Shown here piece by piece: positions 11,472 to 43,416 of a DNA stretch of 54,556 bases (position 1 is its first letter; each line of letters begins with the position of its first letter). This DNA comes from an uncultured Pelagibacteraceae bacterium. Its GTDB lineage: Bacteria > Pseudomonadota > Alphaproteobacteria > Pelagibacterales > Pelagibacteraceae. The stretch is taken from the NCBI GenBank assembly GCA_902560815.1, contig CACENP010000009.1, positions 1 to 54,556 of the forward strand, given 5' to 3'. The notes beneath the pieces are model-generated. The model searched no databases. It was not told the origin of the DNA and saw only the letters and a list, made by a program, of their open reading frames with translations. The translations under genes and the position numbers were made by a program.

Positions 11472-11888
11472 ATGAATAATAATAGCGGTTTTATTGAAAA
11501 ATTAAGGTCTTCAGGGCTAAGGCCTACGAAACAGAGATTAGAAATTTGTAAATTATTGTTTGATAGAAAAAAAACTTTTCATTTTACTATTGGTGATCTT
11601 TCTAAAATTTTAAAAAAAGAAACTAACAAGAAAATTTCTTTAGCAACTATATATAATACGGTTCATTCTTTTAAAAAAAAAGGTTACTTAAAAGAGATAT
11701 CAGTAGATAGAGAAAAGAGCTATTTCGATACCAACACTTCAAACCATCACCATTTTCTTGATATAAGTACTAATGAGCTTATAGATTTGAAAGAGGAAGA
11801 TGTTGATAATATAAAGATTAAAAAAAGTTTACCAGGAAAGAAGATCAAGTCTATAGAAGTGCTGGTCAAAATTGAAAATAATAACTAA
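11472..11888 (+). CDS. irr: Fur-family iron/heme response regulator Irr
   Basis: 138-residue Fur-superfamily DNA-binding regulator. The N-terminal winged helix (LRPTKQRLEICKLLF ... KISLATIYNTVHSFKKKGYLKEI) is followed by the triple histidine NHHHFLD at 91-97, the HxH heme/metal site typical of Irr. The next-door fabA-fabB-fabI operon is the usual Irr neighbourhood in rhizobia. No N-terminal heme regulatory Cys-Pro motif is present. A TATAAA (11454-11459) 12 bases before the ATG suggests a very short leader. Irr in other alphaproteobacteria represses or activates genes of heme and iron use; katG directly downstream with an Irr-like box fits that role. Other Fur members (Fur, Mur, Zur) are less likely. 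Confidence 0.85.
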   Translation: MNNNSGFIEKLRSSGLRPTKQRLEICKLLFDRKKTFHFTIGDLSKILKKETNKKISLATIYNTVHSFKKKGYLKEISVDREKSYFDTNTSNHHHFLDISTNELIDLKEEDVDNIKIKKSLPGKKIKSIEVLVKIENNN

Positions 11889-11943
11889 TCTCAATTATTA
11901 CAAAAATTTTAAATTAGAATTGGAGTGGGTCAATTCTGCTATA

Positions 11944-14217
<2,274 letters not shown>

Positions 14218-39450: not shown

Positions 39451-42400
39451 ATGGCTAGTAAAATAATCGTACCTGATATTGGTGATTTTGAAAATGTAGA
39501 AATCATAGAAATCTTAGTAAAATCAGGGGACAAGATAAAAAAAAATGACTCAATCGTAACTTTAGAGAGTGATAAATCAAGTGTTGAGGTGCCTTCTACA
39601 GAAAATGGTACAGTTGAAAATATAAGTGTAAAAATTGGAGATAAAGTTTCAAAAGGAGATGTTCTCATATCACTTTCACCAGACATAGATAAAGCTGAAG
39701 ATGAGAAAATAAAATCTAAAAAAGATAAATTACCTGTAGATACAGAAAACATTATTCATGAGGCGGAAAAAACTTTAGAAAGAAAAGAAGAAATTACAAT
39801 AAGTAAAGTTGAAAAGAATAAAGATAAAATTATTCAATCACTCAAAGGTGATGATATAGATCCAACTGAAACAAAAGAATGGCTAGAATCCTTATCTGCT
39901 GTTCTTGAAAAAGATGGAAAAAATCGGGCTCAATTTTTAATTAAACAACTTATTGAACATTCTTATAAAGAAGGTTCTGATTTAATATTATCTAGAAATA
40001 CTCCTTACATTAATACTATTAAACCAGAAGAAGAGAAAAAATCTCCAGGAGATCAAAATTTGGAGAGAAAAATTAGATCTTTGATTAGATGGAATGCAGC
40101 AGCAATGGTAGTCAGAGCAAATAAAAAAAATCCTGAACTTGGTGGTCATATTGGAACATTTGCATCTGCAGCCACATTATACGATGTAGGAATGAATCAT
40201 TTTTGGAGAGCTAAAAATAATAAATTTGGTGGAGATTTAATTTATTTCCAAGGCCATAGTGCACCTGGAATGTACGCTAGAGCTTTTCTTGAAGGAAGAA
40301 TAAATGAAAAAGAATTAGATCATTTTAGACAAGAAGTTAAACCAGGTGGACTATCTTCTTATCCGCATCCTTGGTTAATGCCAAAGTTTTGGCAATTTCC
40401 TACAGTGTCCATGGGACTTGGACCAATAATGTCAATTTATCAAGCTAGATTTAATAAATATTTAATTAATAGAGGACTACTAAAAGATGAGGGAAGAAAA
40501 ATTTGGTGTTTTTTGGGGGATGGTGAAACTGATGAGCCTGAATCTTTAGGAGCTATTGGATTAGCAGCAAGAGAAAAATTAGATAATTTAATTTTTGTAG
40601 TAAACTGTAACCTTCAAAGATTAGATGGACCAGTGAGAGGTAACGGAAAAATTATTCAAGAACTTGAAGGAATTTTTAGAGGAGCAGGCTGGAATGTAAT
40701 CAAAGTTATTTGGGGTTCATATTGGGATCAATTATTAGCTAAAGATAATTCTGGTTTATTGATTAAAAGAATGGGTGAAGCAGTAGATGGAGAATATCAA
40801 GCATTCAAAGCAAAAGGAGGGAAGTATGTAAGAGATAAATTTTTTGGAAAATATCCTGAATTATTAGACATGGTATCCCAAATGACAGATAGAGATATTT
40901 GGAAACTTAATCGAGGTGGTCATGATCCACACAAAGTTTATGCTGCTTATCATGCTGCTATGCAGAATAAAGGTACACCAACTGTAATTCTTGCTAAAAC
41001 TATCAAAGGTTATGGTATGGGTAAGTCAGGCGAAAGCATGAATACAACTCACCAACAAAAAAAATTAGATGAAGAAGATTTATTATATTATAGAGATAGA
41101 TTTGATGTACCTTTAACAGATCAACAAGTAAGAAATATTCAATATTATAGACCAGATGAAAATTCACCAGAAATAAAATACTTAAAAGAATGTAGAATTA
41201 AGTTAGGTGGAAACTTACCAGAAAGATCATCATTTGCTAAAGCAATAAAAACTCCACCACAGGATATATTTGCAAAAATGAAAGAATCTACTGGAGAAAA
41301 AGAAATGTCTACAACAATGGTATTAGTTAGAATGTTAACAAATCTTATGAGGGATAAAAATGTTGCTCCAAGACTTGTTCCAATTATTCCAGATGAAGCC
41401 AGAACTTTTGGTATGGAGGGTTTGTTCCAAAAAATAGGAATATATGCTCACGAAGGTCAGAAATATGAGCCAGTAGACTCAGAACAATTAAGTTCTTATC
41501 GTGAGGATATAAACGGTCAAGTTTTAGAAGAAGGAATAACCGAAGCTGGAGCTATTTCATCTTGGATTGCAGCTGGTACATCTTATGCAAATCATGATAT
41601 CTCAATGATACCAATATATATATTTTATTCCATGTTTGGTTTTCAAAGAACTGGTGACTTTATTTGGGCCGCAGGAGACAATCAAACAAGGGGATTTTTA
41701 ATTGGAGCAACTGCAGGACGTACAACGTTGTCAGGAGAAGGTCTTCAGCATGGTGATGGACATAGTCATGTATTGTCTTCTGTAGTTCCAAATTGTATTT
41801 CATATGATCCAACTTTTTCTTATGAGTTAGCTGTAATTTTTAGAGAAGGTTTAAGAAGAATGTATGAAAAGAGAGAAAATATTTTTTATTATATTACTAC
41901 GATGAATGAAAATTATACTCATCCTGAAATACCAAAAGAAAAAAATATAGAAGAAGATATTTTAAAAGGAATGTATAAATTTAAAGAATTTAATAAAAAT
42001 AAAAAAACTAAAATTCAATTATTAGGGTCTGGTGCAATACTTAGAGAAATTATTGCTGCTGCAGAAATATTAGAAAAAGATTACAAAATAGATAGCAATG
42101 TATGGAGTGTAACAAGTTATAACGAGCTTAGAAAAGAAGCTGTAGAGGTTGAAAGGTATAATTTGCTTAATCCAGATAAAGAAAACAAAAAAAGCCACTT
42201 AGAAAAGTGCCTTTCTTCCACTGAAGGCCCAATAGTTTCAGCTTCAGACTATATAAGGTTAAATTCAGATCAAATTAGGCCTTTTACTAGAAAAAGTTTT
42301 TATTCTCTTGGTACAGATGGATACGGAAGAAGTGATACTAGAAAAAATTTAAGAAATTTTTTTGAAGTTGATAAACAACATATCGTAGCCTATTCTTTAA

Positions 42401-42501
42401 GTGTTTTAGCCAAAGAACAATTAATACCATCTAAATATGCAAGCGAAGCTATAAAAAAATATAACATTGACCCGAATAAAACAATCCCTACAAAACTATA
42501 A
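39451..42501 (+). CDS. aceE: Pyruvate dehydrogenase E1 (homodimeric type) with N-terminal lipoyl domain
   Basis: Thiamine-diphosphate enzyme decarboxylating pyruvate. The 1016-residue protein is about 130 longer than E. coli AceE (887). Residues 1-77 are a lipoyl domain of AceF type (VPDIGDFENVEIIEILVKSG, lipoylation site LESDKSS, Lys42). A charged linker (about 78-135) follows, and then full-length E1 from IDPTETKEWLESLSAVL. E1 motifs are intact: thiamine-binding GDGETDEPESLGAIGLA ... NCNLQRLDGPVRG, and TAGRTTLSGEGLQHGDGHSH. Lipoyl domains normally belong to E2; here E2 lacks one and sits 3 bases downstream. So the lipoyl arm appears to have moved to E1. No E3 gene in the window. Confidence 0.95.
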   Translation: MASKIIVPDIGDFENVEIIEILVKSGDKIKKNDSIVTLESDKSSVEVPSTENGTVENISVKIGDKVSKGDVLISLSPDIDKAEDEKIKSKKDKLPVDTENIIHEAEKTLERKEEITISKVEKNKDKIIQSLKGDDIDPTETKEWLESLSAVLEKDGKNRAQFLIKQLIEHSYKEGSDLILSRNTPYINTIKPEEEKKSPGDQNLERKIRSLIRWNAAAMVVRANKKNPELGGHIGTFASAATLYDVGMNHFWRAKNNKFGGDLIYFQGHSAPGMYARAFLEGRINEKELDHFRQEVKPGGLSSYPHPWLMPKFWQFPTVSMGLGPIMSIYQARFNKYLINRGLLKDEGRKIWCFLGDGETDEPESLGAIGLAAREKLDNLIFVVNCNLQRLDGPVRGNGKIIQELEGIFRGAGWNVIKVIWGSYWDQLLAKDNSGLLIKRMGEAVDGEYQAFKAKGGKYVRDKFFGKYPELLDMVSQMTDRDIWKLNRGGHDPHKVYAAYHAAMQNKGTPTVILAKTIKGYGMGKSGESMNTTHQQKKLDEEDLLYYRDRFDVPLTDQQVRNIQYYRPDENSPEIKYLKECRIKLGGNLPERSSFAKAIKTPPQDIFAKMKESTGEKEMSTTMVLVRMLTNLMRDKNVAPRLVPIIPDEARTFGMEGLFQKIGIYAHEGQKYEPVDSEQLSSYREDINGQVLEEGITEAGAISSWIAAGTSYANHDISMIPIYIFYSMFGFQRTGDFIWAAGDNQTRGFLIGATAGRTTLSGEGLQHGDGHSHVLSSVVPNCISYDPTFSYELAVIFREGLRRMYEKRENIFYYITTMNENYTHPEIPKEKNIEEDILKGMYKFKEFNKNKKTKIQLLGSGAILREIIAAAEILEKDYKIDSNVWSVTSYNELRKEAVEVERYNLLNPDKENKKSHLEKCLSSTEGPIVSASDYIRLNSDQIRPFTRKSFYSLGTDGYGRSDTRKNLRNFFEVDKQHIVAYSLSVLAKEQLIPSKYASEAIKKYNIDPNKTIPTKL

Positions 42502-42504
42502 ATT

Positions 42505-43416
42505 ATGTCAGAAAATAAAAAAATATTTGCCACACCTAAAGTAAGGAAATTTGCTAGAGAGCTTGGTGCAAATATAGCTGAGATTGAAGGATCAGAAAGA
42601 TTAGGAAGAATAACTGAAGATGATGTTAAAAATTTTGTAAATAAAAATTTAAATAAATTTAATACAAAAGAAGATATTAAAGTTAAATCTAAATTTAATC
42701 ATTCTGATTTTGGCGATATTGAGATAAAAGATATGCCTAGGGTAAAAAGATTAGCCGCCCCACATCTTTCAAATTCTTGGAATACAATACCACATGTTAC
42801 TCATCATGATGAAGTAGATATAACCGAACTAGAAGATTTCAGAGCAAAATTAACAGATCCAGTATCTGGTGATAAAATTAAAATTACACCTCTTGCCTTT
42901 ATAGCAAAAGCATTAACTAATAACCTAAAGAAATTTCCTACATTCAATTCTTCCATTGATGATATCAGCGAAGGCAAGATTACTTTGAAAAAATATATTC
43001 ATATAGGTATTGCTGTTGATACACCTCATGGGTTAATGGTTCCAAAAATACGAAATGTGGATCAAAAGAAAATAAAAGAAATTGCAGAAGATTTAAAAAA
43101 TGTAAGTGAACTTAGTAGAAATTTAAAAATAAATAAAAAGGAATTTTTTGGAGGATCAATAACCATAACAAGTCTAGGAGGTATTGGTGGAACTTATTTT
43201 ACACCTATAATAAACTATCCTGAAGTTGCAATTCTTGGCGTAGGTAGATCCTATAAAAAACAAATTTTTATAAAGGATAAGTTTCTTGCAAGAACAGTGT
43301 TGCCAATATCACTTTCATATGACCATAGAATTATAGACGGAGCAGAAGCGGCTAAGTTTTGTAATTCATTAAAAGAAAATTTAGGAAAAAATTTCGCCTA
43401 TAATTTGGCCTTTTAA
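42505..43416 (+). CDS. aceF: Dihydrolipoamide acetyltransferase (E2) without lipoyl domain
   Basis: Core acetyltransferase of the pyruvate dehydrogenase complex. At 303 residues it is far shorter than usual E2 (400-630). It begins directly with the peripheral subunit-binding domain (ATPKVRKFARELGANIAEIEG ... GRITEDDVKNFV, residues 9-47) and goes on to the catalytic domain (about 75-303) with the motif DHRIIDG (His274, Asp278). There is no lipoyl domain or DK-type lipoylation site. The only lipoyl domain nearby is on E1. The ATG is 3 bases after the aceE stop. Confidence 0.93.
   Translation: MSENKKIFATPKVRKFARELGANIAEIEGSERLGRITEDDVKNFVNKNLNKFNTKEDIKVKSKFNHSDFGDIEIKDMPRVKRLAAPHLSNSWNTIPHVTHHDEVDITELEDFRAKLTDPVSGDKIKITPLAFIAKALTNNLKKFPTFNSSIDDISEGKITLKKYIHIGIAVDTPHGLMVPKIRNVDQKKIKEIAEDLKNVSELSRNLKINKKEFFGGSITITSLGGIGGTYFTPIINYPEVAILGVGRSYKKQIFIKDKFLARTVLPISLSYDHRIIDGAEAAKFCNSLKENLGKNFAYNLAF

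Follow-up and report, generated by a model that had tools for sequence, protein, structure and literature searches.

We analysed a 54,556-nucleotide stretch of DNA from an uncultured Pelagibacteraceae bacterium of the SAR11 group (the window; contig CACENP010000009.1, forward strand), in which two adjacent genes are predicted to encode components of a pyruvate dehydrogenase (PDH) complex: an E1 of the AceE type that carries a lipoyl domain (LD) at its N-terminus, and an E2 acetyltransferase that carries none. The window is contig 9 of assembly GCA_902560815.1 (G000 in our set; 1.10 Mb in 36 contigs, 83.75% complete). The features of the locus are as follows, with residues numbered along each chain.

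39451..42501, + strand: E1 gene, one uninterrupted open frame of 1016 residues (LD, linker and full-length AceE)
39460..39672, + strand: lipoyl domain of E1, residues 4-74 (PF00364, Biotin_lipoyl)
39574..39576, + strand: codon of Lys42, the lipoylation site predicted from the sequence motif ESDKSSV
39676..39849, + strand: Lys/Glu-rich linker of 58 residues (76-133) from the LD to the AceE part, read from the sequence
39733..39768, + strand: short linker motif P95..T98 E99..I102..A105 E106, recognised by conservation and predicted to be helical at low confidence
39850..39975, + strand: N-terminal segment of E1 (residues 134-175), with a match to the E1 fragment in PDB 9h1n
39850..42492, + strand: AceE catalytic part, residues 134-1014 (TIGR00759; aligns along its full length with the AceE structure 1l8a)
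41050..41052, + strand: codon of His534 of E1, which the alignment with 1l8a pairs with His407
42505..43416, + strand: E2 gene without LD, 303 residues (Pfam domain search; operon table)
42523..42630, + strand: peripheral subunit-binding domain (PSBD) of E2, residues 7-42 (PF02817, 46.6 bits; aligns with chains 9h1n_A and 4qoy_E)
42721..43383, + strand: acetyltransferase catalytic domain of E2, residues 73-293, with DHRIIDG and His274 (PF00198, 256 bits)

The N-terminal domain of the E1 chain was assigned by Pfam (E 4e-19; PF00364 at 74.2 bits in one search and 68.6 bits in another), and its closest solved structures are the E2 acetyltransferase chains 7b9k, 1iyu and 1qjo together with the lipoyl chain 1gjx. 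The AlphaFold model places Lys42 between strands 34-39 and 44-48 (block-mean pLDDT of the LD 65-83), that is, in the beta-turn where the lysine of the DK motif is expected. The rest of the chain belongs to TIGR00759, the homodimeric type of AceE, with 1421.3 bits against a curated cut-off of 859.9, and the window E1 is by its sequence probably of that type. A usual AceE chain has no LD (a trait outside the TIGR00759 model), and here PF00364 is matched at residues 4-74. Asp135, Asp137, Glu140 and His534 of E1 are invariant in 29 of 29 aligned chains; His407 of AceE, the counterpart of His534, has a role in reductive acetylation. The operon holds one AceE-type gene and no separate E1-alpha and E1-beta genes, a count that covers the operon only, the rest of the genome not having been searched for them. 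No Met codon occurs between E1 residues 1 and 219, and the sole alternative ATG, GTG or TTG upstream of residue 134 lies within the LD (codon 47, GTG); an LD-free E1 product is thus possible in principle, though not suggested.

The E2 gene starts after an intergenic gap of 3 bases. No LD was found on its product by the Pfam search, and the chain begins at the PSBD. It scored 332.3 bits against the AceF-type model TIGR01348 (cut-off 552.1), matching model positions 280-581 of 587; the N-terminal lipoyl domain of a TIGR01348-type protein is missing, and the PSBD and catalytic domain of the AceF type are present above their cut-offs (PF02817, PF00198). It also fell below the cut-off of PRK11857 (NF008815), a model of LD-less E2 (193.2 bits vs 378), though the matched span takes in 294 of 308 positions. 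His274 and Asp278 are invariant in all 21 aligned E2 chains. The AlphaFold model of E2 has a mean pLDDT of 65, and most of the structures it matches in the PDB are catalytic domains of E2 enzymes, in agreement with the sequence. An earlier note on this DNA, made from the letters alone, had described an AceF-type LD (Lys42 in ESDKSS) on a full-length AceE, next to an E2 that starts straight with the PSBD and lacks an LD; the domain searches bear out both descriptions.

Next to be considered is how widely this layout occurs. For AceE, 247 genomes of the order were searched, 194 from the window's family (f1; Pelagibacteraceae by its closest named loci) and 53 from a second family (f2). A strong match was obtained in 179 of the 194 f1 genomes, and each of the six f1 genera sampled has an LD-bearing AceE. 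The operon table had 260 rows, of which 20 were dropped for an E1 identical to that of another row; among the 240 left, 223 have a complete E1 and E2, and the remaining 17 are truncated at an end or have no E2 frame (one, L325, covers the wrong side). Because 80 loci were chosen as best matches to the window E1, and supply 61 of the 223 rows, the table over-represents the window's relatives and its operon fractions are not population estimates. The E1 carries an LD in 222 of the 223 complete operons. One LD on each of E1 and E2 was found in 163, and an LD on E1 only in 53, namely the window and 52 other distinct intact operons; the other layouts are two on E1 and one on E2 (three operons), one and two (two operons), two and two (one operon) and none counted (one operon, L210), so that E2 retains an LD in 169 of the 223. 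The exception L210 (also L327; G185:C7), in which the E1 frame is broken and the LD lies in an overlapping frame just upstream of AceE, is a frameshift or assembly error.

The predicted attachment site is kept with the domain. All 218 single E1-LDs have the lipoyl lysine, as does each LD of the four E1 chains with two, and ESDKSS occurs in every E1-LD compared (226 domains, 222 loci). On the E2 side, the lysine is present in 166 of 166 single LDs and in the first LD of three double chains. The earlier note had the arm apparently shifted from E2 to E1. In the window E1 alone carries it; the arm has not simply moved, since almost every operon has an E1-LD, most have one on each chain, and the E2-LD was lost several times (see below).

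Three side observations concern the same genes. The second E2-LD of L177, L181 and L185 (genera g3 and g4) has Glu in place of Lys in three of three cases, and this domain therefore looks degenerate. A genome of genus g2 encodes a second AceE without an LD (G001:C1:10930-13545, 52% identity); PMC10030771 (accessible part) reports aceEF in SAR11 and several copies of aceE in SAR11 IIIa, and does not contain the word 'lipoyl'. None of the 53 genomes of family f2 gave a strong AceE match and the six that were checked (G002, G004, G006, G008, G010 and G018) have one PF00198 protein each, so that f2 may be without this PDH altogether.

Outside the family, the searches took in three sets of Pseudomonadota genomes that share some members: 385 from the class, 398 from the phylum and 369 from the class to which G941 belongs. 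Among the matches listed, no AceE from outside f1 reaches into the LD of the query; the alignment that begins furthest upstream starts at query residue 83, in a row with internal stop codons. Direct inspection of 34 AceE loci outside the family gave no LD in the E1 frame (0/34) and an LD in the neighbouring E2 frame at 28, the other six having none in the retrieved stretch; the 28 positive loci indicate that the LD search works. In the samples searched, the LD on AceE is specific to the SAR11 lineage, which agrees with the tentative suggestion in the earlier note of a SAR11 solution.

The order of events was examined on trees of the operons. A FastTree phylogeny of 230 rows (224 operons and six outgroup E1) was built from the E1 core and E2 core; on it the LD-less E2 chains form seven groups and require seven parsimony changes, two of the groups having low support (0.27 and 0.40). 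An IQ-TREE phylogeny of 75 hand-picked rows (28 LD-less, 43 that keep the E2-LD and four outgroup) also gave seven changes of E2 state, at least six of them forced by well-supported branches, and nine losses were counted by eye when regain was disallowed. A topology uniting the 28 LD-less rows in one clade was rejected (p-AU 6.8e-51). The operon trees point to repeated loss of the E2-LD, about 7 to 9 times. On our reading of the direction of change, the most likely course is that AceE gained an arm in the family's ancestor and that E2 later dropped its own. Streamlining, which the earlier note suggested, would fit this history as the repeated loss of a redundant LD copy.

A different history has a single E2-LD loss at the root of the window's genus followed by a regain, or a deletion that spread by recombination; either would leave the mechanism as it is, and we regard them as unlikely, though well short of negligible. 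The basal branches of the genus include a grade of four LD-less groups, unordered parsimony permits loss followed by regain within its seven changes, and SAR11 recombine often. A tree of the LDs themselves (built on 75 columns, for the most part unresolved and containing very long rows; it includes five true SucB rows, L143 being accB-accC and not SucB) places this genus's E2-LDs loosely with those of other genera and not among its E1-LDs (weak support), which speaks against regain from E1. The losses at L183 and L188, in two other genera, and those at L291 and L322 stand apart from the rest. In LD-less rows E2 begins directly before the PSBD, and the E1-E2 junctions vary between groups, which counts against a single loss or a spreading deletion. 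Two topology tests, both weakened because the joined groups were named after the tree had been viewed, fall on opposite sides: the union of the window clade with the L009 clade was not rejected (p-AU 0.127), and the joining of 22 rows of the window, L009, L031, L057 and L074/L224 groups was rejected (p-AU 0.00115).

If E2 has no LD, other lipoyl carriers in the genomes become relevant. The window genome has one PF00198 protein, the LD-less E2, and three PF00364 matches: the E1, a carrier adjoining an accC-like frame (EAMKT motif; best model BCCP with 91 bits, below the cut-off of 115) and a carrier of 72 residues (EVMKT motif), which we read as a biotin carrier. Four near-complete LD-less relatives, G017 (99% complete), G036 (97%), G028 (98%) and G090 (95%), have three PF00364 proteins each, namely the E1, SucB and an AccB-like biotin carrier; the small carriers have EAMKT, lie beside an accC-like frame and score 96-113 bits with BCCP (cut-off 115). 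The same four have two PF00198 proteins each, SucB and the LD-less E2, and SucB is above its NCBIfam cut-off in all of them. Their only other LD is on SucB (by PF00364 matches; GcvH was not searched for), and no second lipoyl-bearing E2p was found in them by the PF00364 and PF00198 searches. E3 is absent among the PF00364 matches of the four and thus has no LD there; the E3 frames of five relatives are open, 466-471 residues long, match their model from position 1 or 2 and adjoin SucB. Three less complete LD-less relatives agree with this as far as their coverage allows: G202 (89%) also has SucB, and in G193 (89%) and G230 (87%) only the LD-less E2 was found. LipA and LipB are present in all seven genomes searched (the window's own and six relatives). 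The earlier note had named a second full-length aceF as one finding that would overturn it: in the four relatives at 95-99% completeness the answer is negative, whereas for the window genome, at 83.75%, the same check is weak.

We compared the locus with the known systems in which arm placement has been described. LDs on E2 are a textbook feature of the homodimeric-E1 2-oxoacid dehydrogenase complexes. The PDH of E. coli and Azotobacter (homodimeric AceE with AceF, 24-meric E2 core) is similar in both enzymes, in that the window E1 is an AceE that aligns end to end with 1l8a and the window E2 core and PSBD align with AceF in 7b9k; it differs in having its LDs on E2, whereas the window's only PDH-specific LD is on E1. 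Zymomonas-type alphaproteobacterial E1-beta has, like the window E1, an LD at its N-terminus, and the NCBIfam E1-beta model PRK11892 matches window E1 residues 4-118 with 22 bits, far below its cut-off. Unlike the window E1, the Zymomonas-type enzyme consists of separate alpha and beta chains, and its E2 also carries an LD. In Neisseria meningitidis and Alcaligenes eutrophus the LD is likewise fused to a peripheral enzyme, and the window E1-LD matches the lipoyl part of the E3 chain 5u25; there the fusion partner is E3 and not E1, and E2 has LDs of its own. Closest in logic is Mycoplasma hyopneumoniae, with its arm on a partner enzyme and an E2 (PdhC) without LD; its arm sits on E3 (PdhD), the window's on a homodimeric-type E1. 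Of these two Mycoplasma traits the LD-less E2 is found in the window and the LD on E3 is not, as judged from the E3 of the relatives (the window's lpd was not found in full). None of these exceptions is a homodimeric AceE, and the E1 of Zymomonas is not known to be one.

E. coli E2 carries three LDs (PMC8421416, accessible part). The accessible text of PMC7873978 gives LDs on E2 for most prokaryotes and lists as exceptions the E3 of Alcaligenes eutrophus, Neisseria meningitidis and Mycoplasma hyopneumoniae, with K42 lipoylation shown for Mycoplasma PdhD, and the E1 subunit of Zymomonas mobilis (as PdhA). In the Corynebacterium PDH-ODH hybrid, arms are shared among the partners of a mixed complex (PMC7568260, accessible part); E1p and OdhA rely on AceF for their LDs in that hybrid, whereas the window E1 brings its own. 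The earlier note knew of no report of such an arrangement, and in open-licence PubMed Central papers (including PMC8146983) we found none of a homodimeric AceE, or of any E1 from SAR11, that carries an LD, which does not prove absence.

We concluded that the locus probably encodes a working PDH complex with its sole dedicated lipoyl arm on E1, and we put the probability of this at roughly 0.8. LipB and LipA would lipoylate Lys42 of the E1-LD; E1 would decarboxylate pyruvate and acetylate the arm of its own dimer or of a neighbour; the arm would then swing to E2, where the acetyl group passes to CoA, and on to E3, where the arm is reoxidised. E. coli E1 contacts mainly the PSBD, through its N-terminal region (PMC6270654, accessible part). 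Residues 134-175 of the window E1 match a 49-residue E1 fragment of PDB 9h1n, and that entry also holds an E2 fragment, which residues 5-50 of the window E2 match. The usual E2 would read LD, linker, PSBD with docked E1, linker and core; the window order would be LD, linker, E1 docking segment held on the PSBD, linker and core. Since the LD linker directly precedes the putative E1 docking segment, the arm would be anchored near its usual place, through a non-covalent joint. There would be as many arms as bound E1 chains, and a PSBD that holds E3 would have none. The linker itself diverges at 4.6-5.0 times the p-distance of the E1 core, and within it P95, T98, E99, I102, A105 and E106 are each present in 192-212 of the 218 single-LD rows. 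Genera g1, g3 and g4 have this motif, which in g4 lies between the two LDs, and the inspected rows of g2, g5 and g6 do not show it; that the motif may be a second docking element is a guess.

Several points weigh against this conclusion. Lipoylation, E1-E2 binding and activity are all deduced from sequence. The AlphaFold model of E1 (29 close relatives) has a mean pLDDT of 40 and its core is unusable, with only the LD (block means as above) looking folded. A strong AceE match is missing from 15 of the 194 f1 genomes, which are 87-97% complete; assembly gaps may be the cause. The window's own inventory is not decisive, as sucB and a full-length lpd were not found in its assembly; the two genes are adjacent in five relatives, and their joint absence is for that reason likely due to one assembly gap. 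Two possible consequences of losing the E2-LD also failed to appear clearly. A compensating longer E1 linker fell short of significance when independent pairs were compared (median p 0.5), with a mean linker of 62.5 residues in the 53 LD-less rows against 54.9 in the 163 rows with one LD on each chain and a longer linker in six of seven LD-less groups (two of them compared against the same 140 keepers). Stronger constraint on the E1-LD was visible as small differences only, its divergence relative to the E1 core being 1.80 in the window clade, 1.56 in all LD-less rows and 1.89 in those that keep the E2-LD. Finally, the LD of SucB could in principle serve the PDH.

That last point is the basis of a rival mechanism, in which the PDH borrows the LD of SucB, the E2 of 2-oxoglutarate dehydrogenase, in a mixed complex, much as Corynebacterium OdhA does with that of AceF, and the E1-LD is accessory or spare. 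Such sharing has a precedent in the Corynebacterium hybrid complexes (PMC7568260, accessible part), and an LD-bearing SucB lies beside lpd in all four near-complete LD-less relatives. Lys42 and the E1-LD are nevertheless kept while the E2-LD is repeatedly lost, and the E1-LD resembles E2p-type LDs, the five SucB LDs standing separately on a long branch; we find this explanation improbable. Still less credit is due to a second one, that the E1-LD is an unlipoylated regulatory or assembly element and that the complex is crippled or serves another reaction. Its lipoylation is a prediction from sequence, and the lysine-free second E2-LD in three of three complete double-E2-LD loci indicates that LD folds can persist without the site; the invariant ESDKSS of the E1-LDs, the presence of LipA and LipB and the invariance of the aligned catalytic residues of E1 and E2 all argue the other way. 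An assembly, frameshift or gene-calling artefact, to which the fragmented window assembly and the broken E1 frame of G185 might lend colour, is refuted by the 52 other intact operons with the same layout, which neither chance nor one bad assembly would produce, and by E1-E2 gaps of at most 6 bases or overlaps.

An E1-borne arm in a working complex would have wider consequences. With a slight preference over the opposite, we propose that Pelagibacteraceae have a distinct class of PDH in which E1 supplies the arm and E2 may be pared down to core and docking site. The contact between E1 and the PSBD would replace the covalent link between arm and core, arm number and active-site coupling would be set by E1 occupancy, the whole series of layouts, from LDs on both chains to E1 only, would have been kept, the E2 losses would be convergent and the linker motif might take part in docking. 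In the samples searched the layout is genuine, conserved and specific to this lineage, and it is a variant of a known complex. The natural series, in which an arm was apparently gained on E1 and repeatedly removed from E2, makes the question of coupling testable, that is, a covalent arm-core link against docking on the PSBD. It also predicts an unusual stoichiometry, with the arms per complex set by E1 and not by E2, and might provide a natural template for minimal PDH designs. SAR11 include some of the ocean's most abundant cells.

Elsewhere in the window, positions 11472-14217 hold a Fur-like regulator followed by a KatG-like catalase-peroxidase, both named by eye from the sequence; SAR11 are usually described as without catalase.

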